A DNA stretch of 64,000 nucleotides from Atopobium sp. oral taxon 199 str. F0494 (GTDB lineage Bacteria > Actinomycetota > Coriobacteriia > Coriobacteriales > Atopobiaceae). Below are positions 696 to 42,588 of this stretch, in pieces (position 1 is the stretch's first letter; every line of letters starts with the position of its first letter). The notes beneath the pieces were generated by a model. The model saw nothing but the letters and a program-made list of their open reading frames with translations. It did not search any database and was not told where the DNA came from. Location: the NCBI RefSeq assembly GCF_000411555.1, contig NZ_KE150486.1, positions 186,001 through 250,000 of the forward strand. The letters are read 5' to 3'. Position numbers and translations under genes: made by a program.

Positions 696-703
696 ACTGT
701 TCA

Positions 704-739
704 CAGGTCAGAGGCTTAAAGCTTCTGGCCTGTTTTGTT
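704..739 (+). terminator. Rho-independent terminator after tRNA-Val, brought in by the element
   Basis: A 12-bp stem (704-715 with 721-732, two G-U pairs) with loop TTAAA is followed by TTTTGTTTT. It lies inside the integrated element, directly after attL. It replaces the original tRNA terminator, now stranded beyond attR at 5743-5775. Confidence 0.8.
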
Positions 740-741
740 TT

Positions 742-773
742 GCCGCAAATCCCGCCGCAAAATTGCCGCAAAA
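742..773 (+). promoter_or_regulatory. Three direct repeats GCCGCAAAW: integrase arm-type sites on the attL side
   Basis: GCCGCAAAT at 742-750, GCCGCAAAA at 754-762 and GCCGCAAAA at 765-773 are spaced 12 and 11 bp start to start. The same motif in the same orientation and with the same 12/11 spacing occurs at 5544-5575 near the other end of the element. Paired arrays flanking the two att cores are what is expected of the arm sites bound by the N-terminal domain of lambda- or Tn916-type integrases. The role is inferred from position and symmetry. Confidence 0.7.
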
Positions 774-870
774 GCTCAGAGTTTCCCTCTAAGACAAGGA
801 AAGGAGACCCGCTTTCGCGAGCCTCCTCATAGCTCAAACGCGCTTCCTTTGTAGCCGTGGAATTGCGCTC

Positions 871-1509
871 CTAACCTTCTACAGGCAACCCCTCAGAGGT
901 AACCCCTGCGCTGCCCATGTAGGCGTCCGACGCCTCGGATACGTCTTGGACTGCGCTGGCAACCACCTGCCCGAAAGACTTTGCGTAAGCCCCGCTCTCG
1001 TCATCGAGCATCGAGTTGCACGTATCGGTGAGTGAGGAGAGGGCGTCCTCGCAGCGCTCGATGTACGAGGCGGCATCGTCGTGCAAGTCGATGCCCTGTC
1101 TGTTGACGTTGGCATAAATCATGCGGGCTAGCGTGTAGTTGCCGTCCTTCTGCTTGGCCTCCCTGACAAGCTGGGCGGCCTCGGCCTGTGTGAGGTCGAT
1201 GAGGGAGAGGAACTGCATCGTCTCTAGGCTAACGTCACGGGGACGGGGCGCGAATGATGCACTACGCTGCTTGGTGTACTCGTCCATAGCCTTTTGTGCG
1301 GTCGCCTTGAAGGCCGCCTTAGCGTCCGAAATCTGCTTGTCATAGGCGGCGTTGTTCTGCTTGTAACCCTCCTCGCCCACGATACGGTCACGCAGGTTCT
1401 GACGGTTGCCCTCCTTGAAGCGGCGCGCTTCATCTATCTTTGTCTGCGCTTGGGCAGCGGCGGTGCTGATGGTAGTGATGGTCTTTTTGACTGAATCTCT
1501 GTAGCTCAT
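871..1509 (-). CDS. Hypothetical helical protein, last gene of the integrated element
   Basis: 212 residues, not recognised. Starting at ATG 1509 places GGAG six bases upstream; a longer frame would need a TTG at 1521 that overlaps this ribosome binding site. Residues 1-95 are Lys/Glu/Ala-rich and look helical to coiled-coil, a central segment (about 100-160) is mixed, and the tail is acidic. There is no signal peptide or membrane segment. It lies 26 bp after the terminase-like gene and so is probably co-transcribed with it. In satellites this position often holds packaging or capsid-interference genes, but nothing in the sequence shows such a role here. Confidence 0.75.
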   Translation of the reverse strand: MSYRDSVKKTITTISTAAAQAQTKIDEARRFKEGNRQNLRDRIVGEEGYKQNNAAYDKQISDAKAAFKATAQKAMDEYTKQRSASFAPRPRDVSLETMQFLSLIDLTQAEAAQLVREAKQKDGNYTLARMIYANVNRQGIDLHDDAASYIERCEDALSSLTDTCNSMLDDESGAYAKSFGQVVASAVQDVSEASDAYMGSAGVTSEGLPVEG

Positions 1510-1535
1510 GGTGTTCTCCAATCTTGTTGTTTGGT

Positions 1536-1934
1536 CTATTTGTCGGCGGGGAAGATGTCGCTGAGGTCACCGAAAAACTTGCGGTTCAACCTGCGGTCTG
1601 TCGCGGCGCGCTCCATGCTCTCGGTCTGGTCGGTGAGACGAACAACGTTCTGAATAATCGAGTTTGCAGCAGAGAGGCGCACACTGGGAGATGCTTCCTT
1701 GTCGGTCATAATTTCGCAGATGACATCTACGGCGTCCGAAAACTTGGACTGCAGAGCCTTAACGCCTGTATCGAGAAGCTCGTGCCTCGCTGTCGTGTAC
1801 AGCTCCACGAACTCGGGGTCGGACTTGTAGGCGCGCAAGGTGGACTCTCCCATACCCGCGACCCTTGCCGCCTCTTTTGTGGTGTTACAGGCTACCAGAG
1901 CCGCTACAGCGCGCTCGTAGTTATTCTTTGACAT
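1536..1934 (-). CDS. Phage-type HTH protein, possible small terminase subunit
   Basis: 132 residues. The N-terminus (about 5-40) is a helix-turn-helix of the kind A-A-L-x-x-C-x-T-x-x-E-A-A-R-x-A-G-x-x-E-S-T-L-R-x-Y, followed by helical repeats (ARHELLD, then PSVRLSAANSI, about residues 48-95). This layout is seen in phage and mobile-element HTH proteins (phBC6A51-like) and in small terminase subunits, which bind the pac or cos site and hand DNA to the large terminase. GGAAAGG lies about ten bases before ATG 1934. No large terminase is present, which would fit a satellite that redirects a helper's packaging. The terminase role is inferred; a plain DNA-binding regulator remains possible. Confidence 0.6.
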   Translation of the reverse strand: MSKNNYERAVAALVACNTTKEAARVAGMGESTLRAYKSDPEFVELYTTARHELLDTGVKALQSKFSDAVDVICEIMTDKEASPSVRLSAANSIIQNVVRLTDQTESMERAATDRRLNRKFFGDLSDIFPADK

Positions 1935-2008
1935 TGTGTGTACTTACCTTTCCTAGTAACAAGGCGCTTAAAATCGCTTAGAAGCGCTAATAAACTGATA
2001 TTCGCTGT

Positions 2009-2776
2009 TCAGAATGGGCAGTCGGACAAGTCGGGTTCCCCTGCGGGTTTTCTGTTCCATGCGCGTGAGGCTTCATGCCCATACGATTCACTGACCCTCT
2101 TTGAGATGCGCAGAAGGTAAGCCCGCCAATCGTGGATGGGGTTTCCCCTCTTATCAGTAAAGCCTCTACTCTTAAGCCTTTCGTATTCGTCGCCGTAGGG
2201 TTCCGGTACGTCGTTCTCTTCCATGAACCTAGCCCACTCGTCTTTGGAGGGAAAAACTGCAGTCGATTTGCCAAAATCGACCATATCTTTTTTATTGAAA
2301 CGTTCTATTGGTTTTAATGGGGCAACAACTTTGTTGCGCTTTAACCCCGGATTTGTTGCGCTTTTTGTCGAAAACGTTGCGCATTCTTCACTGATTTGTT
2401 GCGCATTCTGATTTACACCTCCTCTGGTATTGGGCAACGAATCTGTTGCGCATTCCCTTGGTAGGTTGAGGGTGTACGTTGCCGCCCGCCCTCTGTGACC
2501 CTCCCTCACCCTTGTGATTACGGGCACGGGGGAGCCGTCCTTGCCCCTAAACGTCTTTCGCGTGAGCGAAGTGAGCTTGTTACGTACGTTGTTTTCGGAA
2601 AGCCCACACTCGGCGGCAATCTCGCTCACTGGTCGCCAAATCTCCCTGTCTCTGTCTTTCTGGTAACGCATCAGGGAGATGAGCACGACAAGCTCTTTTC
2701 CGCTCACGTTGGCCTCTGTCAAGGCGGCGAGCATTCCTGCCCATACTCGCGTGAATGGCTCGCTCTCGCCGCTCAT
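2009..2776 (-). CDS. Winged-helix replication initiator protein of the element
   Basis: 255 residues. ATG 2776 is preceded by GAGGT at a good distance and lies 10 bp after the stop of the upstream gene; the frame is open further upstream but only as overlap with that gene. Residues about 15-100 form a winged helix (W-R-P-V-S-E-I-A-A-E-C-G-L-S-E-N-N-V-R) as in phage and plasmid replisome organisers. The middle (about 105-155) is a low-complexity linker encoded by the iteron array described at 2331-2451. The C-terminal part (P-x-x-Y-G-D-E-Y-E-R-L ... W-R-A-Y-L) resembles the tail of phage replication proteins. An origin nested inside the initiator gene is the arrangement known from lambda O. 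It probably binds the iterons and recruits host helicase. Confidence 0.75.
   Translation of the reverse strand: MSGESEPFTRVWAGMLAALTEANVSGKELVVLISLMRYQKDRDREIWRPVSEIAAECGLSENNVRNKLTSLTRKTFRGKDGSPVPVITRVREGHRGRAATYTLNLPRECATDSLPNTRGGVNQNAQQISEECATFSTKSATNPGLKRNKVVAPLKPIERFNKKDMVDFGKSTAVFPSKDEWARFMEENDVPEPYGDEYERLKSRGFTDKRGNPIHDWRAYLLRISKRVSESYGHEASRAWNRKPAGEPDLSDCPF
2281..2320. other. AT-rich segment beside the iterons, candidate DNA unwinding element
   Basis: Forty bases with very low GC (CATATCTTTTTTATTG ... GGTTTTAATGG) lie immediately next to the iteron array within the initiator gene. AT-rich blocks next to iterons are where duplex melting starts in lambdoid, plasmid and satellite origins. 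Assigned by position and composition only. Confidence 0.5.
2331..2451. repeat. Five iterons (TTGTTGCGC), predicted replication origin of the element
   Basis: The motif YTGTTGCGC occurs at 2331-2339, 2353-2361, 2396-2404 and 2443-2451, and as ACGTTGCGC at 2374-2382. The first four copies are 22, 21 and 22 bp apart, two helical turns, so they lie on the same face. All are in the same orientation, and three are followed by ATTC. The array sits inside the replication initiator gene and produces its repetitive linker. Regular spacing plus the AT-rich neighbour makes an origin the most likely meaning. Confidence 0.75.
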
Positions 2777-2786
2777 ATCCGTGACC

Positions 2787-3176
2787 TCAACCCATGAGGC
2801 CGTCGTAGGCGTGTGTGCGGCGCTCGATGAGCGTACGGCACGCGGGTACCTGTGCCACAAGCAAGCGGGCGAGGGCGGGGACGTGGTTGTTGTTGACCTT
2901 GGTCGTACGTCCGTGGCTGTCGGTGAACTCACGCCTGCGAACCTTCTCGGCAAGCTCCTGCATACCGAACTTCCGCCCTTGGGAGGAATAGCCTTGTGCC
3001 GTCTTGACCATGTATGACCAGGCGCCCTCGTTCTCCTTGACCCATTCGGCTGCCTCGTGGGCGAACCTTCTGTGCCTCTCGGCTATCATTTGTGAGGAGG
3101 CGTCTACAAGCTCCTCGCTCTCGGCCCTTGTGGCGGCTGCGACCGCTACGGGGGCCGTTCCCTTTCTAGTGGGCAT
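2787..3176 (-). CDS. Small conserved phage/mobile-element protein of unknown function
   Basis: 129 residues. The core (about 38-128) has the pattern F-A-x-x-x-x-W-V-x-x-N-x-x-x-W ... A-x-x-x-R-R-R ... K-V-N-N-N-H-V-P-A-L-A-R-L-L ... P-A-C-R-x-L-I-E-x-R, which recalls a family of uncharacterised small proteins found next to replication genes in phages and integrative elements. No catalytic motif is apparent. The first codons overlap the end of the HTH gene by 11 bp and the stop lies 10 bp before the initiator gene, so the three are translated from one message. A role in replication or its control is suggested only by position. Confidence 0.7.
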   Translation of the reverse strand: MPTRKGTAPVAVAAATRAESEELVDASSQMIAERHRRFAHEAAEWVKENEGAWSYMVKTAQGYSSQGRKFGMQELAEKVRRREFTDSHGRTTKVNNNHVPALARLLVAQVPACRTLIERRTHAYDGLMG

Positions 3177-3429
3177 CGGTCATCGCCTCGCTTAGGCCGA
3201 GTCTTTCAAGGACATCCACCGTGTTGAAGCGGTAGCGATTGCCAATCCTTACGCAGGAAAGCTTTCCAGAGCCTGCCATTCGTTGAATATGCCTCTCGCT
3301 AACCCCTGCGAGTGCCGCAACGGTTGGCGTGTCGATAAGGGCGGGGAGACTGCCTGCTCCGTCTCGCACCTGCTCGATAGTGAATCGTGAGTTGTGCGGG
3401 GTTCTAAGCCCCGCCGTGATTGTGCTCAT
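3166..3429 (-). CDS. Excisionase-family helix-turn-helix protein
   Basis: 87 residues, with AGGAGA upstream of ATG 3429. Residues about 33-80 (TPTVAALAGVSERHIQRMAG, then a basic wing G-x-L-x-C-V-R-I-G-N-R-Y-R-F and a V-x-D-V-L-E-R-L tail) match the MerR-like HTH_17 excisionase/AlpA fold. Such proteins bend att DNA and steer the integrase toward excision, or switch on satellite operons. It heads the presumed replication operon, and a 14-bp perfect palindrome (3461-3474) lies 32 bp upstream of its start. Xis and AlpA functions cannot be told apart from sequence. Confidence 0.8.
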   Translation of the reverse strand: MSTITAGLRTPHNSRFTIEQVRDGAGSLPALIDTPTVAALAGVSERHIQRMAGSGKLSCVRIGNRYRFNTVDVLERLGLSEAMTDAH

Positions 3430-3460
3430 GTCTTTCTCCTAGGTCGATTTACTGACTATC

Positions 3461-3474
3461 TCGTACCGGTACGA
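3461..3474. promoter_or_regulatory. Perfect 14-bp palindrome TCGTACCGGTACGA, candidate operator
   Basis: The palindrome lies in the leader or promoter region of the excisionase/replication operon. A related octamer GGTACATA occurs at 3510-3517 and again at 5605-5612 upstream of the integrase gene. This suggests that one element-encoded regulator acts at both promoters. The assignment is inferred from symmetry and position. Confidence 0.5.
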
Positions 3475-3547
3475 CACATAAGGTATCACAGAGAAACCGC
3501 AGTTAGATTGGTACATAAACCGACTGAGTAGGAAGAAATCCCGCGTT

Positions 3548-3630
3548 ATTTTTCGGGTCTCCGAGAGGTTTTAGGCACTCGGAAACATGACCCGAAAAAA
3601 TGGGCGAGAGGTTTTTCGCCCCGTCGCCCA
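3548..3630 (-). terminator. Two successive hairpins ending the integrase operon
   Basis: Read on the minus strand after the stop of the regulator gene (3683), TGGGCGA/TCGCCCA (3624-3630 and 3601-3607) forms a stem followed directly by TTTTTT: a standard intrinsic terminator. The T-run is itself one arm of a second, nested inverted repeat (3548-3559 with 3589-3601, plus an inner CCGAG/CTCGG pair at 3561-3565 and 3578-3582). The two structures share sequence and could exclude each other. Confidence 0.7.
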
Positions 3631-3682
3631 TTTGATCTGATGAGATATTTTTTATCTACACAAAAACGTCACAAAACGATTG

Positions 3683-4324
3683 TTACACGCTCTGTCCTTC
3701 GTCTGCAACATGAGTGGCCCGCTTCGTGACTGCCGCGTTGAAGGCTGTAACTGCATCTCGCAGCTCATTTCCGGCCTCTATGACTTGCGCGTTGTTTCTG
3801 CTTTTCCTTGCCTTATACATACGCCTCCACGCCTCAGCAACTTCAAGGAAGGCCACCAAATCAGTCTGGGTCGCCTGTGTGCGCCTCTCGTCTAGCACCG
3901 TTAACGCGGCCACGTCGCAGAGCGATTCCACTTCGTCATGGAAGAGGTAATAGCAAACGTTCGATAGGATACAGTCCATGCCCTTTATGTAGGCTTCTTC
4001 CGCCGTATCCTTGGTAAGCTCGTCAAGCACTACCTTTCGCGCTGTCTCCTCGGGTATGCCATAGCGTTTTGCAATCAATGTAGCGAGATATGCGACGAGC
4101 TTCTCTGCCTTATCTCTGTTGAGTGATGAGGGGTCGTCGCTCCAATTCTTGACTGTCTCCGGTGACTTAAAGCCTACTCCTTGGGCGACCTCTGCTTGTC
4201 CTACGCCCGATAGAAGCTCGGTGCGGATTGCCTCAATGCGTCCCGGTTCCACCTCACCAAGTGGCTTATTGTCGTTGGGAACGGGCAAGCTGCGTTCCTT
4301 CAACTCTTCAATGAGATTGCTCAT
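3683..4324 (-). CDS. Hypothetical protein with probable HTH, coupled to the integrase gene
   Basis: 213 residues, not recognised overall. Residues about 28-70 (LLSGVGQAEVAQGVGFKSPE followed by T-V-K-N-W) look like an XRE-type helix-turn-helix, and the rest is helical with a Cys/Tyr-rich patch (about 118-128). The start overlaps the integrase stop by 4 bp (ATGA, 4321-4324), which implies translational coupling. A small DNA-binding protein co-expressed with the integrase is a good candidate for the element's repressor, possibly acting at the palindrome 3461-3474. That role is inferred. Confidence 0.7.
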   Translation of the reverse strand: MSNLIEELKERSLPVPNDNKPLGEVEPGRIEAIRTELLSGVGQAEVAQGVGFKSPETVKNWSDDPSSLNRDKAEKLVAYLATLIAKRYGIPEETARKVVLDELTKDTAEEAYIKGMDCILSNVCYYLFHDEVESLCDVAALTVLDERRTQATQTDLVAFLEVAEAWRRMYKARKSRNNAQVIEAGNELRDAVTAFNAAVTKRATHVADEGQSV

Positions 4325-5532
4325 TTGTCATCGGTTCCCGTCTTCAAACGTATGATTGTTGCGTCTTTTGGTTTGCGCTCCATTGCCTCGCTCACGGTCT
4401 CCGCTGCCCTGCGCTTGGCGTCCGGGTCTGCACTTGCATAGATGTTCAGGGTCATTGCGGCGTTGGTGTGCCCCAGTATGCTTGATACGCTCTTCACGTC
4501 TACACCCTCGGAAATCGCCGCCGTGGCGAACGTGTGTCTCAGGTCGTGGAACGTGGGGACCCTGCCTTGGGTGCCCACTAGGCCGAGTGATGCCGCAATG
4601 GCCTTCCAAGCCTCCCAGAGGGCGTGTGGGGCCAAGTTTGTACCGTCCATCCTGCCCAGAACGTACAGGTCATTCGAGAAGGGGATTCCGCCTTCTAGAC
4701 ACTGCCTGACCATCTCGGTACGCTGTGTCTTAAGTGCCTCGATAATAGAATCAGATACCGGAATGTCGCGCCTGCTACCCCCTGTCTTAGGCTCCTTCAC
4801 ATAGGTTTTGCCTCTATCCCTGCCTATTACGGTGCGAACCCTGATTACATCCGATTCGAGGTCAACGTTCTTCCATTGGAGGCCGCAAATCTCGCCTTCT
4901 CTCATACCAGTGAAGAGGGCGAGCCTGATTCCAAGGTTCACGGGGCTGGATGCTGCTATGTCCAGAAACGAGACAAGCCGTGCTCTCTGGGCGGTGTCCA
5001 ATGCGTTTGGCTCCTTCTTTGGAATCTTGGGGAGCTTCACGGTGCGTAGGGGGTTCTTGACTATGCGCCCCGTATCCTCTGCGTGGGTCATTGCCGCTTT
5101 AAGGAGGTTGAAAGCCTTTCGCACGGTGGAAGCTGCATAGCCGTTGGAAACCATCGAGTTAACCCATGCCTGGGCGCTTTCGGCGTTCAATTCTTCGAGC
5201 CTTAGGGAACCAAGCTCCCCGTCAATGTGCTTCAACATCGCGTGATAGACGGTCACGGTTGACCTCTCGATTGACTCGGAAGCCTCTAGGGTATCGACGT
5301 AGCGCGTCACGTAGTCTATTACGGTTTCCGCTGGTGCGAGGATACTCGCGCTTACGGCTTCTGCCTCCATGTCATCGCGCCATTTGTCTAATTCCTTGCT
5401 TGCCTCGCGTTTGCCCTTAGCATCGAGGGACTTCTCCCTCTTGCGCCACTTCCCGCTCTCGTCCTTGTAGGAGAGGACGCCAATCCAACCCCTGCCCTTG
5501 CGCTCCCTTAGGTAGGCTGATGAGTAGAACAT
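4321..5532 (-). CDS. int: Tyrosine recombinase (site-specific integrase)
   Basis: 403 residues from ATG 5532, which has AAGGAGG (5537-5543) a few bases upstream; a start at 5562 is less likely. An N-terminal arm-binding domain (about 1-55, S-Y-K-D-E-S-G-K-W-R-K-R) is followed by a core-binding SAM-like domain (about 65-155) and the catalytic domain (about 165-390). The catalytic residues are visible as R in F-T-G-M-R-E-G-E, H-x-x-R in FHDLRHTFAT, H in ILGHTNAAMT and the nucleophile Tyr in LNIYAS. It inserts and, with the excisionase, releases the element at tRNA-Val. The arm sites at 742-773 and 5544-5575 are its presumed secondary targets; the latter lie just upstream of its own start. Confidence 0.95.
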   Translation of the reverse strand: MFYSSAYLRERKGRGWIGVLSYKDESGKWRKREKSLDAKGKREASKELDKWRDDMEAEAVSASILAPAETVIDYVTRYVDTLEASESIERSTVTVYHAMLKHIDGELGSLRLEELNAESAQAWVNSMVSNGYAASTVRKAFNLLKAAMTHAEDTGRIVKNPLRTVKLPKIPKKEPNALDTAQRARLVSFLDIAASSPVNLGIRLALFTGMREGEICGLQWKNVDLESDVIRVRTVIGRDRGKTYVKEPKTGGSRRDIPVSDSIIEALKTQRTEMVRQCLEGGIPFSNDLYVLGRMDGTNLAPHALWEAWKAIAASLGLVGTQGRVPTFHDLRHTFATAAISEGVDVKSVSSILGHTNAAMTLNIYASADPDAKRRAAETVSEAMERKPKDATIIRLKTGTDDK

Positions 5533-5543
5533 CGTTCCTCCTT

Positions 5544-5575
5544 GCCGCAAAATGCGCCGCAATATCGCCGCAAAA
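5544..5575 (+). promoter_or_regulatory. Three direct repeats GCCGCAAWA: integrase arm-type sites on the attR side
   Basis: GCCGCAAAA at 5544-5552, GCCGCAATA at 5556-5564 and GCCGCAAAA at 5567-5575, with start-to-start spacing of 12 and 11 bp, identical to the array at 742-773. They lie between the integrase start and attR, so integrase bound here could also repress its own gene. Confidence 0.7.
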
Positions 5576-5588
5576 TATCTACTTCGTT

Positions 5589-5617
5589 ATTGTACGCTAT
5601 TTACGGTACATACGGAA
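5589..5617 (-). promoter_or_regulatory. Possible integrase promoter
   Basis: On the minus strand, TACAAT (5594-5589) follows TTCCGT (5617-5612) at 17 bp. The -10 is good and the -35 poor. The octamer GGTACATA (5605-5612), also found upstream of the excisionase gene, lies within the spacer. Confidence 0.35.
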
Positions 5618-5689
5618 TATGACATATAGATACAGGTAGAAAACTCGTAACTGTCGCGTTGATATTTCCTGTTCGGCAACATAAAAAGA

Positions 5690-5734
5690 CTGACACGGAA
5701 GAGTTAACAAGTTCAAATCTTGTAACGCCCACCA
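5690..5734 (+). repeat. attR: duplicated 3' end of tRNA-Val
   Basis: A copy of 651-695 with three mismatches; the final 28 bp (5707-5734) are identical. It lacks the 5' half of a tRNA and is not a functional gene. This is the displaced 3' end of the original tRNA gene. Confidence 0.92.
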
Positions 5735-5742
5735 CAAGTTCG

Positions 5743-5775
5743 CAGGTCATCGGGTTTCTCGATGACCTGTTTCTT
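5743..5775 (+). terminator. Original tRNA-Val terminator, now downstream of attR
   Basis: CAGGTCATCG/CGATGACCTG (5743-5752, 5760-5769) with loop GGTTTCT and TTTCTT after it. It stands in the same relation to attR as the terminator 704-739 stands to attL. Confidence 0.75.
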
Positions 5776-5865
5776 AAGGTTCAGATATGTTTAATACTAT
5801 AGACGGAGAAACCATACTCCTTGGCGTACAGATGTTTCAATAGTCGATGCAAGTCTCTATTGATT

Positions 5866-6117
5866 ATGACTATAGATTTCAAATGGCGTCGGAGGTTATT
5901 GCTAGCTGAAATTATCATATCGGTAGCTGCTTCAATTTTGTTGCAGCTCCAGTTGATAAGTCCAAAGGTTTTTGCATGGTCTTTGGTGCCTGTTACTGTT
6001 CTCTTTCTTGCAGCAACAGTAACAGGAAATGAAACAAAACCGGTATTCAAGATCTTGTCATGTGTACTTTGGCTTGCAATGACGGCATACGCGTTGGTGT
6101 TCTTTTTGAATCAATAG
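5866..6117 (+). CDS. Small hypothetical membrane protein
   Basis: 83 residues from ATG 5866 (the frame is open to a TTG at 5821). Three hydrophobic stretches, about 9-30, 36-54 and 62-80, look like membrane helices, and the N-terminus is basic (KWRRR). There is no clear Shine-Dalgarno sequence and no recognised family. It lies just outside the integrated element, between attR and the Elp3-like gene. It could be a real small membrane protein or a chance AT-rich frame. Confidence 0.4.
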   Translation: MTIDFKWRRRLLLAEIIISVAASILLQLQLISPKVFAWSLVPVTVLFLAATVTGNETKPVFKILSCVLWLAMTAYALVFFLNQ

Positions 6118-6497
6118 TACTGTTGTAAATAGCGCTGTACAAAGCATGGTGCGGTAAGTCTGAGTACAGTGCTTTTACGCTGATTTTGAGAGTGTTATCC
6201 GGGTCAGATGGTTACTGCTGAGTAATCGGCTGTAATGCCGATGAACTCTTGTATTTCTCAGGTTGCTCAATTTAGCACTAGGTGTGCCGATTGGCTGCGC
6301 CCTTTAAATAGCAATCTGATGCTGAAATTTTGAGGTAGGGATTTAAGGGGCAGCTAGGCAGCTTAAAAAAGTGGCAGGCTTCTTATTGATTTTGCCGTTT
6401 CAATCTCTTGCCAGGTTTTAAGAAGGTTTTGTCACCTCTTGTCTGATCAGATAGAGCAGCTGTCATCTGATGCCGGCTTTATTGCATGTATGTAGTT
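6118..6497. other. Gene-free stretch
   Basis: About 380 bp between the small membrane protein and the stop of the Elp3-like gene. No frame with plausible coding character, no tRNA and no strong intrinsic terminator was recognised. Confidence 0.5.
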
Positions 6498-8348
6498 TTA
6501 CAGCTCTTTTTGCTGATATAAGTCGGCATCCTTAAAGCCCTGCGCACGATAGTAAGCGCGTGTGCCAATGGAGCTGATCACATTGAGGGCAGTATAACCT
6601 TCGTCTGCAGCAATCTTACCCGCCTGTACGAGTAGCTTTTGGCCAAGACCCTGATGTTGCGCGGATATGCCTTCTGAGCCCAGAGACAAAGCCTGGCCAT
6701 AAATATGCAGTTCTCGGATCATCGCCTGATCCGGCTGGACTATCAATTCATCGGCATGTACGTCGCATGTGCCTGCCGCCAGCTCATCCCAGTGTGGGAG
6801 TGAGAGCCGACAAAAACCTGCGATTTTGTTATCTCTCGTTACCCACTGCAAAAAGTGCTCATCACTTACGGCAGTAGTATAGGTGTAGTCCTGTAAGCTG
6901 AGCTCAGCTGCACTTACCTGTTGCTGGTTGATCTCCCTGAAGCGGATCTCTTGTACACAGGAAGCCTTTTCCCCATCATTGAGCTCTTGTTCGACCATTT
7001 GGCGCAGGTTTGTGTGTTTGTTGCCCACCAAAATATCGGTGGCACTAATATCGCGGATCATACGAGAAATACGTACGTATGTCGGTGCCGCTAATACGTC
7101 GTGTACCAGCACATCTACCAGCTCGTTTTTGGAGTAGGGCTGCCAGAGTCCCTTCCGGTACTTCTTGACCAGTTGCGTACCGTCTACCAATGCGCAAGGA
7201 TAGAGTTTGATCTCATCGGGAAGATAGCCGGGGTCAGTTACAAAATTGATAAAGTCTTGCTTATCTGCCTCGGGTGTTGCACCTAACAGATTGACCATAA
7301 GGTGCGAGTGGATCTTGAATCCATAGAGGCGAATAAGTGAGAATGCGCGTTTGATCTGCGCGACAGTCATTTGGCGTAAGTTGGCATCAAGAATTTCCTG
7401 CCGGGTACTTTGGATGCCGATTTGGATTTTAGTGCAGCCAAGCTGTCTGAACATGCGCAGGTTTGCGGGTATGATCGTATCAGGGCGCGTTTCTATGACC
7501 AGACCCACTACGCGGCAGGCTGCAGTCTCATTAGCACGTTGCTGTTTAAGAAGATCTTCGAAAGTAGCACGCATATGAGACCATGCAGTTTGGTGTGCTT
7601 GGCTGGTATCGTACAGCCTGTGGAAGGCCTGATTATACGTTACGGCATGCGCGTTGACGGCCGCTTGCTGACGAGCAACAAATGAAGACAGCGCTTCTTC
7701 TGTATTTTGCAATCCAAAAGAGCGATACCAATGCAGGCGCTTCTCGATCTGCTGAGGTGAACGGGGCCAATCATTGAGTGCGCGGAATAACTCGCTTATG
7801 AACCAGTATTGATAGTCCGCAGGATAATCACTCCAGGTGCCACCTAGTACAATAAGCTCGATCTTGTCTGTGGAATGGCCCATCTGATGCAGTGCTTGCA
7901 GACGAGCGGCAACTTGTACGTAAGGGTCAAAGAATGTTTGCTCCGCACGCTGACAGGCCGGCTCGTTGGCAATATAGCTTTTGGGCATGCGTAGATCACA
8001 GGGACAGTACAGGCAATTGCTTGAGCAGGTATGTGGTCGTGTGATGACCGTAATGGTGGCTACACCCGAGGCAGTGCGCCGCGGTTTCATGCGCACCGAG
8101 TGTATAAAGCGCGCTTCCAGCTCGGGCGTAACGTTCCAAGAGCGCCACAGCTCAGCATTTTTGTTCTTGACCTGTAAAAAATAGGGCAGGACAGCACGTT
8201 TGGGAATCTGTTTTGGGCTATCTATGCCACTGATGTTGTTGACAGTACCGCTGTGTGAGCGGAGCAACACCTCAAGCTGATGGGCGTCAAGAGCGCTCTG
8301 AGAGCTCGCGCGAAGTTTCTCTAGTATGTCCCATATGAGTTCGTTCAT
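6498..8348 (-). CDS. Elp3-family radical SAM / GNAT tRNA-modifying enzyme
   Basis: 616 residues from ATG 8348; an upstream ATG at 8429 would overlap the divergent gene and lacks a leader. The radical-SAM centre CSSNCLYCPC lies in a T-C-S-S-N-C-L-Y-C-P-C-D-L-R-M-P-K-S-Y context near residue 110, followed by the Elp3 signature L-G-G-T-W-S-D-Y and I-E-T-R-P-D. The C-terminal ~100 residues form a GNAT acetyltransferase domain (H-Q-G-L-G-Q-K-L-L, Y-Y-R-A-Q-G-F). Elp3 uses acetyl-CoA and SAM radical chemistry to add carboxymethyl to wobble uridine 34 of tRNA. Bacterial stand-alone Elp3 proteins exist, but without the Elongator subunits. Its divergent neighbour resembles Trm9, which acts on the product. 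TATAAT lies six bases upstream of the ATG, so the mRNA may be leaderless. Confidence 0.88.
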   Translation of the reverse strand: MNELIWDILEKLRASSQSALDAHQLEVLLRSHSGTVNNISGIDSPKQIPKRAVLPYFLQVKNKNAELWRSWNVTPELEARFIHSVRMKPRRTASGVATITVITRPHTCSSNCLYCPCDLRMPKSYIANEPACQRAEQTFFDPYVQVAARLQALHQMGHSTDKIELIVLGGTWSDYPADYQYWFISELFRALNDWPRSPQQIEKRLHWYRSFGLQNTEEALSSFVARQQAAVNAHAVTYNQAFHRLYDTSQAHQTAWSHMRATFEDLLKQQRANETAACRVVGLVIETRPDTIIPANLRMFRQLGCTKIQIGIQSTRQEILDANLRQMTVAQIKRAFSLIRLYGFKIHSHLMVNLLGATPEADKQDFINFVTDPGYLPDEIKLYPCALVDGTQLVKKYRKGLWQPYSKNELVDVLVHDVLAAPTYVRISRMIRDISATDILVGNKHTNLRQMVEQELNDGEKASCVQEIRFREINQQQVSAAELSLQDYTYTTAVSDEHFLQWVTRDNKIAGFCRLSLPHWDELAAGTCDVHADELIVQPDQAMIRELHIYGQALSLGSEGISAQHQGLGQKLLVQAGKIAADEGYTALNVISSIGTRAYYRAQGFKDADLYQQKEL

Positions 8349-10197: not shown

Positions 10198-10536
10198 ATG
10201 GGAAACACAAAAAAGATTTTCCTTTTTTGCAGTGCTGGAATGTCTACAAGTATGTTGGCATATGCAATGCAGCAGGTAGCTGATAATCATAAGTTGCCGA
10301 TTACCGTTGAGGCGAAGCCGGTTGACTCTATCGGGCAAATCATTGAGGCCGAACGTCCTGACTGCATTCTTCTGGGCCCCCAAGTCTCACATATGTATAG
10401 CGAAACAGTTAAAAGGTTCGGCCCGACGGGAATACCCATCAGCCTTATTGATAAAGAATCATATGGTTTGATGGACGGAGAGAAGGTCCTTAAAAAGGCC
10501 ATTCTCCTTATCAAACAGGCCAAATCAGCACAGTAA
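10198..10536 (+). CDS. PTS lactose/cellobiose-family EIIB
   Basis: 112 residues. ATG 10198 follows AGGAGGTGAGG; the in-frame GTG at 10189 lies inside the ribosome binding site and is less likely. The phosphocysteine loop is I-F-L-F-C-S-A-G-M-S-T-S near residue 11, as in cellobiose/chitobiose EIIB. It passes phosphate from a Lac-type EIIA to the EIIC-bound sugar. The EIIC follows after 43 bp; no Lac-type EIIA is in the operon or elsewhere in the window. It is the first gene of the run that includes the glycosylasparaginase and the dipeptidase. Confidence 0.92.
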   Translation: MGNTKKIFLFCSAGMSTSMLAYAMQQVADNHKLPITVEAKPVDSIGQIIEAERPDCILLGPQVSHMYSETVKRFGPTGIPISLIDKESYGLMDGEKVLKKAILLIKQAKSAQ

Positions 10537-10579
10537 GACAAAACAGTATCGGATCTTTGCGTGGATTGGAGAAAGCACC

Positions 10580-18283: not shown

Positions 18284-18353
18284 GGGACAAGGGATAAGAG
18301 ATAGGGATAGGAGATAGCCGAAAACCACGGATCTTCTCGATTTTTTGGAAAGA

Positions 18354-18718
18354 GCAAAGCGGGCCTGTAAGCCGGGTTCTGTCGTGGACGACCATTTATC
18401 TACGAATGCCGTTGCCGACATCCTCTAGCGCGCAACCCGAGCGCAGTGCGGGCTACACCATAGCGCTCCTATTTGCGTTTGCTCCGGATGGGGTTTACCA
18501 AGCCGCCCTGTCGCCAGAGCGCTGGTAGTCTCTTACACTACCGTTTCAGCTTTTCTCTTTACGCTTGCGCGCAGGTGAGAGTCTTCTTTTCTGCGGCACT
18601 TTCCGTCGGGTCACCCCGCCTGGCCGTTAGCCAGCATCCTGCCCGTGGAGCCCGGACTTTCCTCATGGCAGCCCTCCAAGACTGGATGGCCGCCCCGCGG
18701 TCGTCTGGCCCGCTTTGC
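18354..18718 (-). ncRNA. rnpB: RNase P RNA, bacterial type A
   Basis: The minus strand reads through the conserved blocks of rnpB: GAGGAAAGTCCGGGCTC near the 5' end, GGTAAACCCC in the middle and ACAGAACCCGGCTTACAGGC at the 3' end. Helix P1 is given by 12 perfectly complementary bases (18707-18718 with 18354-18365), which set the ends. The RNA is the catalytic part of the enzyme that trims tRNA 5' leaders. A TACAAT -10 (18726-18731, minus strand) lies seven bases before the start. Confidence 0.97.
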
Positions 18719-36793: not shown

Positions 36794-38911
36794 CTACCAG
36801 ATATAGATTTTTGTGCCGTAGGGGATGTTGTTATAGATCCATTTGGCATTTTCAGTAGCAAGGCGTACGCAGCCATGTGAGCCGTGATATCCTAGGCGGC
36901 CATCCCTCACCGTATACCCATCGCTGTTATACAAGATGGAGTGAATAAGGTAATCGCCTGTAATTTGTGTGTAATACCAGCATCGATAGCCACTGCCAAA
37001 GTACAAGCCCTTGGATCCGACAGTAAACTGTCCATGAGGGGTCCACATACCCGGCATGCCTGTAGTGCAATACCATTCGTACCATGGAGTCCAGTTACCC
37101 CGGTAACCCTTATAGACAGCGAAGCGGTTCTGATGGGTGTCTATTTGAATAAGCCAGTTGGTGGCGCTATAGATGCTCTGCGCATAGTTGAGCATGTCGG
37201 GATAGTAGCAGGGTTGCTCTACCATAGCGCCATCGGGGCCGGCCGCATAGAGTTTGCCTCCCCAAGACAGATATCCGGTCTTCATGGCACCCGTATAAGG
37301 ATCAAGGTAGTAATCCTTGCCGTCATCTTTAATCCAGCCGGTATCCATGGCGCCATTGGCGGCAAGGTGGTACCAATAAGCGCCGCCGGGCTTAATCCAT
37401 CCCGTTTGCATAAGGCCCTGAGAGTCAAGATAGTACCAGCGTCCGCCTGCCTGCACCCAGCCTGAGACAGGTTGTCCGTCGTCTCCGTACAGGTAATACT
37501 GACCATCGATTTTTTGCCAGCCGGTCAGGAGCTTGTGATCGGATGAAACATATATCGTCAAGCCGCCAAGGTCAATTTTTCCTGTTGGCTGAGATCCGTC
37601 AGCGGCAAAAAATTCGTTATTGATAATACGGCCGGTAATGGTGCCTTCCTGGGTCGCCCAAACCTTGTCGCCATTAGGCAGTAAAACCCATTGCTTTCTG
37701 GCAAGACCGTAGCTTTCATCAAAATAGTAATGACGCCCGCCGTTGAGAACCTGCTCGCCAAGGAGAGCTTCATGAGATGGACTATCAGGATTGAAATACC
37801 AGGTACTACCATTAGGGGCAGTGAACCAGCCGCTGATGAACGGACCATCATCGCTCGCCCAGGCCCACCGGCTTTCACCAAGTTTGACCCAGCTATTGCG
37901 CTTCATACCGGTATTTCCGTCGATGTAGTACTGTCGACCGTCAACACTGATTTCTCCTGTCATGAGCGGATGGTTTGCTTTGGTTGGATCAAAGTACCAC
38001 CAGGCGTTTTTGGGACCCCAGACCCAGCCGGACGCAAAAGATCCGTTGTCGGTCGCCCATACCCAGGAACCGTCAGTAAGTTGAATCCACTGGCTGGTTG
38101 CAAGGCCAAGCTGCTCATCAATCCAGTAAGGATATCCGTTGACCATAATCATGCCGAGGTCTGCGGGATGCAGAGGATTATGAGGATCAAAGTAGAAGAC
38201 GCGACCCCATTTTGTTGTCGCCCACCCTGAGGCAAGCGCACCGGAATCAGTTGCCCATGACCAGGTTCCTTCAGAGTTTTGCACCCATTCCTGACAGGCC
38301 ATGCCGCTGTTCTCGTCAATGAGATAGGTCTTGTCACCGTCAGTAACCTGACCGAACTTAGCAGCGTTATGAGGAAGGGTTGGATCAAGGTAGAACCATC
38401 TGTCACTTGGCTTTGCCCAACCTGAAACAGCAATGCCTTCTGAGTTGAAGAGATGCCAGCCGTCAGCGTCTTTTACCCAGGTGTTCTTGAGATAGGAGCC
38501 ATTCTCATCCTTATAGCGAAATCCCTTTTCGCTTGCTTCCCAAGGAGAGGAAGGCTCTTCAGGCGTAGGCTCAGGAGCGGGCGCAGGCGCGGGATTTTGC
38601 GGAGTGTCCTGTTGATTGTCGGTTGCTTCTTCGGTTTCCTGTGAGGCTGGCGCGCCGTCATGTTCCGGAGCTTTGTGAGAGTTTGCAGAAGATTCCTGCG
38701 ATGAAGGTGTGCCGGCGTTAGTCTCGGGAGGAAGCGCTTCCTCGGATTTTGACGTGTTAGCAGAAGATGAAGGAGCATAGGTGTTTCCCTGCGGCATGTT
38801 GTTGTCTGCGAGAATCTGAGAGGGGGTCAAAGCGATTGCAATACTTAACGCGATTGGCACAGCAAGTGCAAGAAGCGATTCTCTTTTTTTCTGGAGATGT
38901 GTGATGTTCAT
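36794..38911 (-). CDS. Secreted L,D-transpeptidase with cell-wall-binding repeats
   Basis: 705 residues from ATG 38911 with TTGGAGC five bases upstream. Signal peptide: basic Q-K-K-R-E then hydrophobic 13-29, probable cleavage after Ala35. A Pro/Ala/Glu-rich linker (~40-125) leads to about fifteen GW-type cell-wall-binding repeats (W-x-x-x-x-G-x-W-Y-Y-x-D type, ~125-560), interleaved with tryptophan-rich modules. The C-terminal YkuD domain (~575-705) has the catalytic H-G-S-H-G-C-V-R-L with His679 and Cys681. It makes 3-3 or protein crosslinks in peptidoglycan or modifies them. Codons 142-275 lie in a 403-bp perfect inverted repeat shared with the amidase gene 40330-42588. Confidence 0.93.
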   Translation of the reverse strand: MNITHLQKKRESLLALAVPIALSIAIALTPSQILADNNMPQGNTYAPSSSANTSKSEEALPPETNAGTPSSQESSANSHKAPEHDGAPASQETEEATDNQQDTPQNPAPAPAPEPTPEEPSSPWEASEKGFRYKDENGSYLKNTWVKDADGWHLFNSEGIAVSGWAKPSDRWFYLDPTLPHNAAKFGQVTDGDKTYLIDENSGMACQEWVQNSEGTWSWATDSGALASGWATTKWGRVFYFDPHNPLHPADLGMIMVNGYPYWIDEQLGLATSQWIQLTDGSWVWATDNGSFASGWVWGPKNAWWYFDPTKANHPLMTGEISVDGRQYYIDGNTGMKRNSWVKLGESRWAWASDDGPFISGWFTAPNGSTWYFNPDSPSHEALLGEQVLNGGRHYYFDESYGLARKQWVLLPNGDKVWATQEGTITGRIINNEFFAADGSQPTGKIDLGGLTIYVSSDHKLLTGWQKIDGQYYLYGDDGQPVSGWVQAGGRWYYLDSQGLMQTGWIKPGGAYWYHLAANGAMDTGWIKDDGKDYYLDPYTGAMKTGYLSWGGKLYAAGPDGAMVEQPCYYPDMLNYAQSIYSATNWLIQIDTHQNRFAVYKGYRGNWTPWYEWYCTTGMPGMWTPHGQFTVGSKGLYFGSGYRCWYYTQITGDYLIHSILYNSDGYTVRDGRLGYHGSHGCVRLATENAKWIYNNIPYGTKIYIW
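38087..38489 (-). repeat. 403-bp perfect inverted repeat, left copy (inside the L,D-transpeptidase gene)
   Basis: The reverse complement of these 403 bases is identical, base for base, to 41484-41886; I compared all lines and found no mismatch. On either side the two genes differ at once. Both copies sit in the same codon phase (the first base is the third position of a codon in each). It encodes about 134 residues of wall-binding repeats. Confidence 0.97.
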
Positions 38912-39226
38912 AGTGCTCCAATCAACTCTGCGTATTTGCTGCGACCAGGCATGCTCGCATGGAGATAGTACAACATGCATAAAGGCAGTACAGCATGAAA
39001 AGTAAGGTTCGAGAAAATACATAAAGACGTCTTTTATTATAGGGTGAATGGCTCTCATTGAGGTTCACGAAGAGAATATGCCGTTCGTCGATGCATTTTG
39101 CGCTGTTAGCGGTTTCTCGAGCAAATATGCGTTCGTTAAGGTTATTATATTCCTTGTGGTGTTAGCCACGGGTATCGCGCGTAAGCGCAGCGTTTGTCCC
39201 GCGGGACAAAGAAAGAAAGGCACGAA
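38912..39226. promoter_or_regulatory. Divergent promoter region and cold-shock leader
   Basis: 315 bp between the L,D-transpeptidase start and the cold-shock gene. It contains a 12-bp palindrome AAAGACGTCTTT (39023-39034), followed by a possible -10 TATTAT (39035-39040) for the cold-shock gene. The ~180-base leader this would imply is typical of cspA-type mRNAs, whose long leaders fold differently in the cold. Confidence 0.45.
39193..39210. promoter_or_regulatory. Perfect 18-bp palindrome just upstream of the cold-shock ribosome binding site
   Basis: TTTGTCCCGCGGGACAAA is a perfect inverted repeat without a spacer, ending 16 bp before the ATG. It could be an operator or, read as RNA, a hairpin close to the ribosome binding site AAAGG. 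Confidence 0.55.
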
Positions 39227-40329: not shown

Positions 40330-42588
40330 ATGAAACGAGCGAAGTTCACGGTTGTCACGCGTTTATGCGCGGCAGTCCTGCTGGCTTTAGTCGTAACCTG
40401 TCTGTGGGCGCCTCGATTAGCAGCGGCTGAAACCTATACCACGATGGATTCATCGGGTAATCTCGTTACGTCAGATTCACTGCAAAGCGCCATTGCAACA
40501 GCTCGGGCAACGGGAAGACCCATTGCGATTGACCCCGGTCACAGCGATGGCACAGCTGGCCGTGATCCGGGTGCTATCGGCCCAAATGGTCTGCGTGAAG
40601 GAGATGTGGCATGGAATACTGCCATGCGCGCAAAGTACTATCTCGAAAAATGGGGTATCCAGGTCGTTATTGTTCGCGGAGAGCATGAGGATCCTTCACT
40701 GCGGGAGCGCGTCCAGAGGGCGGTTGACGCGAACTGCTGCGCCATTGTTTCGATGCACTATAACTCAGCCGGTCCATATGCTGTCGGATCTATGGTGCTC
40801 GTTCCTCGCAGAGCGCAGTATAACAGCGATCTCTATGCCGCCGGACAGGCGCTTGCAAAAGCGATAAACGGCGAACTCAATAAGCGCGCGGGTATTACGA
40901 CACGCTGGGATTCGGCGCCAACCAAGGGAAACGGCTCGGAAAGTCCCTACGATACCGGCGAAGAGTCCGATTATTTCGGTATTATCCGCTATGCACGCAA
41001 GCAAGGTATCTTAGGCGTTATTATCGAGCATGAATTCATTTCCAATCCGGCCATGGAGGCAAAGCTGTCCGATCCGTCGTTTATCGACTACATCGGTTGG
41101 GCGGACGCGTGGGGCATCTGGGATCATTTCTATGCATCTGATACATGGTGGAGCATGAGCCGCGTTGACGTCTCAACGGATGCGAGGGGGCAGATTGTCA
41201 TGAGTCCTCATCTGATAGGTGTCGGCACGGGAATGACCTATTCCTACTATTACAAACCAGCTGGCGGTTCGTGGGTAACCCTTGCTGAGAACACCACAAA
41301 AACGTCAAGTACTTTTATGCCTCCTTCAAAAGGTACCTATACGCTCTACATTACTGCGAGGTCATCTGACGGTTCGAGTGTTTCTCGTCAGATTAACTAT
41401 GACTCATCCTCTATTTCGCCAAGTCCCGGTTGGCATAAGTATGATGCCGGTTGGATGTACTTTGACAGCAATGGAGTAGCCTGCAAGAACACCTGGGTAA
41501 AAGACGCTGACGGCTGGCATCTCTTCAACTCAGAAGGCATTGCTGTTTCAGGTTGGGCAAAGCCAAGTGACAGATGGTTCTACCTTGATCCAACCCTTCC
41601 TCATAACGCTGCTAAGTTCGGTCAGGTTACTGACGGTGACAAGACCTATCTCATTGACGAGAACAGCGGCATGGCCTGTCAGGAATGGGTGCAAAACTCT
41701 GAAGGAACCTGGTCATGGGCAACTGATTCCGGTGCGCTTGCCTCAGGGTGGGCGACAACAAAATGGGGTCGCGTCTTCTACTTTGATCCTCATAATCCTC
41801 TGCATCCCGCAGACCTCGGCATGATTATGGTCAACGGATATCCTTACTGGATTGATGAGCAGCTTGGCCTTGCAACCAGCCAGTGGGTAACGCTTCCTTC
41901 AGGACGCCGTGTATGGGCTGATGGCAACGGGTACCTGAGGACCTCTTCGGATGCCGGTGCCAAGCTGATAACCGAGGACGACGCTTCGGATCCCAAGCCG
42001 GGAGATGATGATGACAATAATCAAGAGGATCCTTCTAACAAGCCGGCGCGGGGCGCCTGGTCTACGAACGTTTCGATCCTTGGGAGCGCGACCCTTACCA
42101 AGGCGGACTTGGTAGCGGATTTGAAAGCAGGGCTCGCCGTTCGCGGAATCTCCTATCCGGAAGCGCTTGCTGCGAAGGGCGCAGCAACGCCCGAAGCCTT
42201 TATTGATCAGCTATGGGACGCAGCGCTTGCGGAAGGAGTGAGACCTGAGGTTCTTTACGCTCAGGCAATGCTTGAGACGGGATATCTGAAGTTCGGCGGT
42301 GACGTCAAGGTAGAGCAGTGCAACTTCGGCGGTCTTGGCGCAACAGGCAACGGTGTTTCGGGCGATACGTACGACAGCGTCTCTGAGGGGCTTCTCGCTC
42401 AGTCACAGCATCTTCGCGTCTATACGGGAAACTATCCCTTAACAGCCATTGTTGACAAGCGTTTTGGTAACTGGCTGCTCAACAGGCAGAAGGCAAATCC
42501 TGCAACAACTATCGGAAAACTTGCTGGTACGTGGGCTATGGATTCAAGCTACGGAGACCGATTGGTTTCCATTCTCAACCGTCTGTAG
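40330..42588 (+). CDS. Secreted bifunctional wall hydrolase: N-acetylmuramoyl-L-alanine amidase plus glucosaminidase
   Basis: 752 residues, with CGGAGG upstream. Signal peptide 1-33 (cleavage near L-A-A-A). The Amidase_3 domain (~60-275) has zinc ligands His71 (IDPGHSDG), Glu90 (LREGD) and His143 (MHYNS), and the catalytic Glu near 233-235 (IIEHEF). A beta-sandwich-like segment (~280-360, S-Y-Y-Y-K-P) follows, then wall-binding repeats (~370-540), an acidic linker (~555-575) and a glucosaminidase domain (~610-752; L-Y-A-Q-A-M-L-E-T-G, N-F-G-G-L-G-A-T-G). It cuts peptide stems and glycan strands. Codons 386-519 are in the 403-bp perfect inverted repeat shared with the L,D-transpeptidase gene. 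Confidence 0.93.
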   Translation: MKRAKFTVVTRLCAAVLLALVVTCLWAPRLAAAETYTTMDSSGNLVTSDSLQSAIATARATGRPIAIDPGHSDGTAGRDPGAIGPNGLREGDVAWNTAMRAKYYLEKWGIQVVIVRGEHEDPSLRERVQRAVDANCCAIVSMHYNSAGPYAVGSMVLVPRRAQYNSDLYAAGQALAKAINGELNKRAGITTRWDSAPTKGNGSESPYDTGEESDYFGIIRYARKQGILGVIIEHEFISNPAMEAKLSDPSFIDYIGWADAWGIWDHFYASDTWWSMSRVDVSTDARGQIVMSPHLIGVGTGMTYSYYYKPAGGSWVTLAENTTKTSSTFMPPSKGTYTLYITARSSDGSSVSRQINYDSSSISPSPGWHKYDAGWMYFDSNGVACKNTWVKDADGWHLFNSEGIAVSGWAKPSDRWFYLDPTLPHNAAKFGQVTDGDKTYLIDENSGMACQEWVQNSEGTWSWATDSGALASGWATTKWGRVFYFDPHNPLHPADLGMIMVNGYPYWIDEQLGLATSQWVTLPSGRRVWADGNGYLRTSSDAGAKLITEDDASDPKPGDDDDNNQEDPSNKPARGAWSTNVSILGSATLTKADLVADLKAGLAVRGISYPEALAAKGAATPEAFIDQLWDAALAEGVRPEVLYAQAMLETGYLKFGGDVKVEQCNFGGLGATGNGVSGDTYDSVSEGLLAQSQHLRVYTGNYPLTAIVDKRFGNWLLNRQKANPATTIGKLAGTWAMDSSYGDRLVSILNRL
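41484..41886 (+). repeat. 403-bp perfect inverted repeat, right copy (inside the amidase gene)
   Basis: Identical to the reverse complement of 38087-38489, with the two copies separated by 2,994 bp. Synonymous positions are identical too, so the copies have exchanged sequence recently or keep doing so. Confidence 0.97.

Follow-up and report, generated by a model that had tools for sequence, protein, structure and literature searches.

The DNA analyzed here, i.e., the window, is a 64-kb stretch (C1:186001-250000) of a 1.67-Mb Atopobium genome (G000). An island of ~5.04 kb is inserted in a tRNA-Val gene of the window, and seven intact genes, all on the minus strand, lie between the two copies of its att site. 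The attachment gene, tRNA-Val (gac), occupies bp 620-695 on the plus strand and is itself intact. Its 3′ end doubles as one att copy, bp 651-695, which is identical to the empty site of a congener, G003. The distal copy, found by a direct-repeat search at bp 5690-5734, is a tRNA-Val 3′ fragment. The two copies form a 45-bp direct repeat of the tRNA 3′ end, identical at 43 of 45 positions and spaced 5039 bp apart. The original prediction had placed an element at 696-5734 between two tRNA-derived att sites. Both the element and the sites hold up, and the size is corrected to ~5.04 kb between att cores.

The segments just inside the att copies are structured, as follows. Next to the tRNA-side copy, a hairpin search found a terminator-like hairpin at bp 703-733 on the plus strand, which would serve as a replacement tRNA terminator. 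It is followed by GCCGCAA in three direct copies with a spacing of 11-12 bp (bp 740-773; starts at 742, 754 and 765). A repeat search found a second, arm-like GCCGCAA triplet near the other end (bp 5542-5575; starts at 5544, 5556 and 5567). By their layout, the two triplets are putative integrase arm sites. They are a feature absent from the original prediction and are kept at both ends of a related element in genome G269 and at the single readable end of another in G185. A second terminator-like hairpin, bp 801-828 on the minus strand, closes the rep-terS-orf216 operon.

The gene at bp 4321-5532 encodes a 403-residue protein that, judged by its sequence, is certainly a tyrosine integrase (PF00589, 4.5e-28). 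Overlapping int by 4 bp is the gene of a putative regulator of 213 residues (bp 3683-4324), a position taken by other HTH-type proteins in the elements of G031 (186 residues) and G185 (158 residues). A 253-bp intergenic region, bp 3430-3682, lies upstream of the xis operon; it contains a terminator-like hairpin (bp 3602-3621) and would be the operator/promoter region for that operon. The xis gene itself, bp 3166-3429, encodes an excisionase-type HTH protein that scores above the curated HTH_17 and TIGR01764 thresholds, so that integrase and excisionase, both named in the original prediction, each pass the curated cut-offs of their families. Next is the gene for P129 (bp 2787-3176), a conserved protein without a named family that is found between xis and rep in the elements of G031, G269, G185 and G313; a P129 relative likewise precedes rep in G378.

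The replication initiator gene, rep, extends from bp 2009 to 2776. Its product has an N-terminal HTH and a C-terminal part in common with the G031 protein. The matches of the initiator are weak ones, namely HTH_36 at 3.6e-5, slightly under the cut-off of that family, and PHROG replication-initiation families. Inside the gene are five iterons, GTTGCGC(A/T)T, at bp 2333-2455 (starts at 2333, 2355, 2376, 2398 and 2445), with two more copies elsewhere in the 64 kb. The cluster is a putative replication origin. The iterons are retained in the initiator gene of G269, in agreement with the original reading of an initiator with internal iterons; in the initiators of G031, G185, G378 and G313, candidate iterons showed no excess over codon shuffles. 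The last two genes, for a TerS-like protein and for ORF216, are treated below. Among the seven genes there are none for capsid, portal, tail, TerL, lysis or conjugation functions, and ORF listing together with family searches bears out the claim of seven genes on one strand without structural genes. A domain-family search of the seven proteins found no relaxase, FtsK/Tra or other transfer domain. For defence genes, PADLOC returned just weak mad1 HTH matches.

Elsewhere in the window, bp 18352-18716 encode an ordinary bacterial RNase P class A RNA. Two divergent cell-wall genes, bp 36794-39058 and 40330-42588, which by eye look L,D-transpeptidase-like and amidase-like, have in common ~130 residues of wall-binding repeats that are nearly identical, as if by gene conversion.

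The gene at bp 1536-1934 encodes a 132-residue protein that matches PHROG small-terminase families at 3.1e-5; its relatives match PHROG 7344, 2538 and 4044 down to 3.6e-8. A tblastn search of 50,697 phage records had hits in 15, at identities of 30-40%; of these records, 13 are Streptococcus satellite phages and the other two are small human-faecal phage scaffolds. An AlphaFold2 model (pLDDT 79) shows an HTH of three helices and, after it, two long ones, i.e., the N-terminal HTH and central helical hairpin of TerS proteins. In a Foldseek search of the PDB, the top eight matches are chains of 2AO9 (phBC6A51), which is counted among small terminases (PMC11331095); the PaP3 small terminase ranks 11th, and TetR-type folds are lower in the list. 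All of these PDB fold matches are above E 0.001, the best being 0.037. When the TerS and ORF216 profiles were searched against PDB sequences, a designed helical bundle matched weakly and no other hit was significant; small terminases scored E 0.12-0.34. A TerS relative lies immediately before a Terminase_3-type TerL in the faecal scaffold MT836267 and in the IMG/VR contig 3300031760_008113. Taken together, the PHROG matches, the tblastn records, the fold model and the TerL neighbors make it likely that the product is a small terminase. The original prediction had proposed a TerS-type HTH-plus-helical layout and had named a different predicted fold as grounds for giving it up; the fold obtained is terminase-like, albeit with the best E at 0.037.

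ORF216 (bp 871-1509, minus strand; 212 residues from the ATG) is modeled as a confident helical hairpin, residues 3-86, and a less confident small helical domain. Fold searches gave only generic helical matches in the PDB, none of them significant, and in BFVD an unnamed protein as the best match (E 0.023). No capsid-size redirector fold of the CpmB, Rcm or Sid type is among the PDB and BFVD matches listed. The modeled topology would be compatible with a redirector or scaffold of these types. By hhalign, the ORF216 family shows weak similarity (E 3.4e-4) to a protein of roughly 220 residues encoded a few genes beyond TerS in faecal and IMG/VR contigs; none of 100 shuffles scored as high, and an unrelated control gave 0.34. 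Streptococcus helical proteins of similar size near TerS were considered as relatives and have no detectable relationship. ORF216 is thus a candidate packaging or capsid-assembly factor, the capsid-assembly role being speculation by likeness to helical redirectors such as Rcm.

The island has relatives in other Coriobacteriia, as the gene-order search suggested in the original prediction brought out. The TerS profile matches in 6 of 400 Coriobacteriia genomes, namely G000, G269, G031, G185, G378 and G313. G269, from a different genus of the same family, carries all seven genes in the same order at tRNA-Val, with an att spacing of 5054 bp. Six of the seven genes plus a different regulator are found in G031, an Olsenella MAG, at tRNA-Thr between 47-bp att copies spaced 5221 bp apart. 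The same content, in a different member of the family at the same tRNA-Val, is found in G185, which is labeled as the same species (G185:C1:434000-451000, L017, 6002-9996); there, part of the int end and the adjoining 6 kb read as N. Compared with the window, the G185 element is 91% identical at the integrase C-terminus, 66% for Xis, 68% for TerS and 57% for ORF216; no dnaE match was found in G185. The more distant element of G378 lies at tRNA-Val (tac) with an att spacing of 5456 bp and has an integrase, a P129 relative, an initiator-like protein and TerS; no ORF216 relative is recognized in it. The likewise more distant element of G313, at tRNA-Pro, has an integrase, an excisionase, a P129 relative, TerS and a 207-residue protein that was aligned with ORF216 from its position and an identity of 17%, its order with TerS being swapped. 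No att repeat of at least 20 bp was found for it. Finally, a 5577-bp element of G273 (G273:C2:281000-294747, L018, 7857-13484), at tRNA-Val (cac), encodes a DnaB-like helicase as well as a relative of ORF216 at 21% identity; no TerS is recognized in it. Imperfect 25-bp repeats at 10401-10566 of that locus may be an origin. Thus TerS and ORF216 occur together usually, not always, given G378 and G273.

The congener G003 (82% identical to G000 in dnaE) has the same tRNA-Val unoccupied, its left and right flanks joined via one att copy. In every gene compared, dN/dS is below 1, with 0.12-0.36 for terS and orf216. The empty site, the recurring gene order and these ratios argue that the island is not a chance arrangement. 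The G000 and G269 elements are 88.4% identical over their full length, 5.1 kb, while the host genes dnaE and ruvB are only 73% and 70% identical. From this comparison of sequences, the element evidently crossed genera recently. Within the pair, dS is 0.03-0.21 for int, the regulator and xis, 0.94 for terS and 0.42 for orf216; the first three genes being far closer than the last two, the elements appear to have evolved by mosaic exchange.

Close relatives were not found in viral contigs with TerS, integrase or ORF216 as queries, which gave distant loci only. Four of these, the faecal scaffolds MT836267, MT837714 and MT837364 and the IMG/VR contig, resemble the island in having TerS followed by a distant ORF216 relative. 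They differ in length, 6.3-11.5 kb, and in content: TerL and primase are present as well in MT836267 and the IMG/VR contig, and a tape-measure protein and Gp15 in MT837364. MT836267.1 has a 124-bp terminal repeat and hence is circular, ~11.3 kb, with TerS, TerL, an integrase, a repressor and a primase. No capsid or tail family match is present in its proteins scanned, and it is a candidate satellite in its own right. MT837364.1 was found via its ORF216-like protein, not by the TerS search; a 124-residue neighbor of that protein matches TerS families, so that TerS, the ORF216-like protein, Gp15 and the tape-measure protein are on one 7-kb scaffold (1921-6736), in which neither TerL nor capsid was seen. 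The two TerS-matching human-faecal phage scaffolds come from Mexico, and DNase treatment was part of a study on the virus-like-particle virome in Mexican children (PMC8361208). An origin of the scaffolds in particles is likely, although an accession link to that study was not found.

The layout invites comparison with known satellites. PICIs have a divergent stl/str arrangement and a pri-rep layout. The island has the integrase, excision and replication functions, the own att site, the TerS found in some members only, and the lack of structural and lytic genes that mark PICIs and SaPIs, which are ~12-15 kb long with a conserved gene organization and a master regulator (PMC6092414). It departs from them in size, being 5.04 kb with bounded TerS-bearing relatives of 5.05-5.46 kb, and in having one strand and an initiator only, with neither a divergent master regulator nor a primase-type replication module. 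Hence, of the original reading as a SaPI/PICI in a reduced, 5-kb form, the satellite part is strengthened and the family name does not hold: the island would be SaPI/PICI-like in working and is not a bona fide PICI. The Streptococcus satellite prophages (PMC6813308), such as Javan147 (MK448334) and Javan292 (MK448404), are alike in having a terminal integrase and a distal TerS homologue, 30-40% identical. They are longer, 8-15 kb, and far richer in genes, some having an annotated primase, and their integrase and regulator are opposite in strand to the remaining genes. The PICMIs, minimal Vibrionaceae satellites of about one-eighth of the helper genome, have a core of int, alpA and primase and no terS (PMC10803314). 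Compared by features, not by homology, they share with the island an int that often has a downstream gene overlapping by 4 bp, an excisionase-type regulator and a replication gene; the island has TerS, and no primase was found in it, which places it outside that group.

The content of the island also has to be weighed against origins other than a satellite. Int, Xis and Rep at a tRNA gene, with iterons in the initiator, are the core of integrative plasmids and AICEs too. An integrative mini-plasmid or AICE-like element, self-excising, self-replicating and moved by a conjugative neighbor, would fit that core, with the TerS-like protein as a copy-number or transcription regulator. An HTH plus helices suits a regulator as well, TetR-type folds being present lower in the Foldseek list, and the G273 element retains much of the layout without a recognized TerS. 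We regard this origin as unlikely, since the seven genes include no relaxase, FtsK/Tra or other transfer gene, such as the FtsK-like translocase or relaxase of AICEs and conjugative elements, and since the TerS relatives sit in satellites and phage contigs, two of them directly before TerL. Neither the initiator protein nor the element DNA has a plasmid match, which also tells against the plasmid association that the original prediction had offered as its counterevidence.

Two further origins start from phage. Integrase, excisionase, initiator and TerS are all phage-type genes, as they would be if a larger prophage had decayed, losing its late genes, and only a remnant were left; such decay is very improbable, because the genes are all intact and under purifying selection, and content, order and size are alike in several genera, with recent transfer between genera. 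That the island is instead a self-sufficient small virus, its coat protein being ORF216 or P129, both without a named family, would agree with the near-constant size. We give this scarcely any credence: ORF216 is modeled as a long hairpin of helices and a small helical domain, for which neither PDB nor BFVD gave a coat-protein match, and a TerS without TerL implies a helper. We consider it fairly probable that the island is an integrated, minimal, helper-dependent phage satellite that tags its own DNA with its own TerS, and a member of a small Coriobacteriia family. This reading is strengthened by the TerS relatives, which are confined to satellite phages and phage contigs of small size, by the terminase-like fold, the recurrent gene order, the clean empty site and the inter-genus transfer, and by the lack of a plasmid match.

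For the satellite, the helper, the induction, the circle, the packaging and the role of ORF216 are what we infer, as follows. In the resting state, the integrase would keep the element in the tRNA-Val gene. Infection by a helper phage would turn on the operon xis-P129-rep-terS-orf216, and Xis with the integrase would then excise a circle. Rep would bind the iterons in its own gene, allowing replication on host or helper enzymes. TerS would bind a pac-like site on the satellite and recruit the helper's large terminase, and the satellite DNA would enter helper particles, either in concatemeric form or with the capsids altered. ORF216 would probably assist a late step, possibly capsid assembly. 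With four Pfam families, HK97-type capsid, portal, Terminase_3 and TerL_ATPase, no match was found in G000, G185, G031 or G269, i.e., these genomes hold no resident helper of those types. It follows that the helper phage probably comes in by infection, as for the PICMIs (PMC10803314).

A bolder proposal, which we think doubtful, is that TerS and the ORF216 family make up a packaging cassette of two genes common to the minimal satellites of Coriobacteriia and small gut phage contigs. ORF216 would then represent a capsid-assembly or packaging factor of a new class, and the near-constant 5.0-5.5 kb would reflect packaging in fixed concatemers or in capsids that are unusually small.

The better-known phage satellites are those of staphylococci, streptococci, enterobacteria and vibrios. 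Among the open-access papers searched, the terms 'Coriobacteri' and 'phage satellite' were found together in a single one, on faecal transplantation. If the satellite reading is true, a seven-gene, TerS-bearing satellite that crosses genera would lower the size limit of TerS-type satellites. It would also provide a minimal model for helper-dependent packaging and a route to the phages of these bacteria via their parasites.
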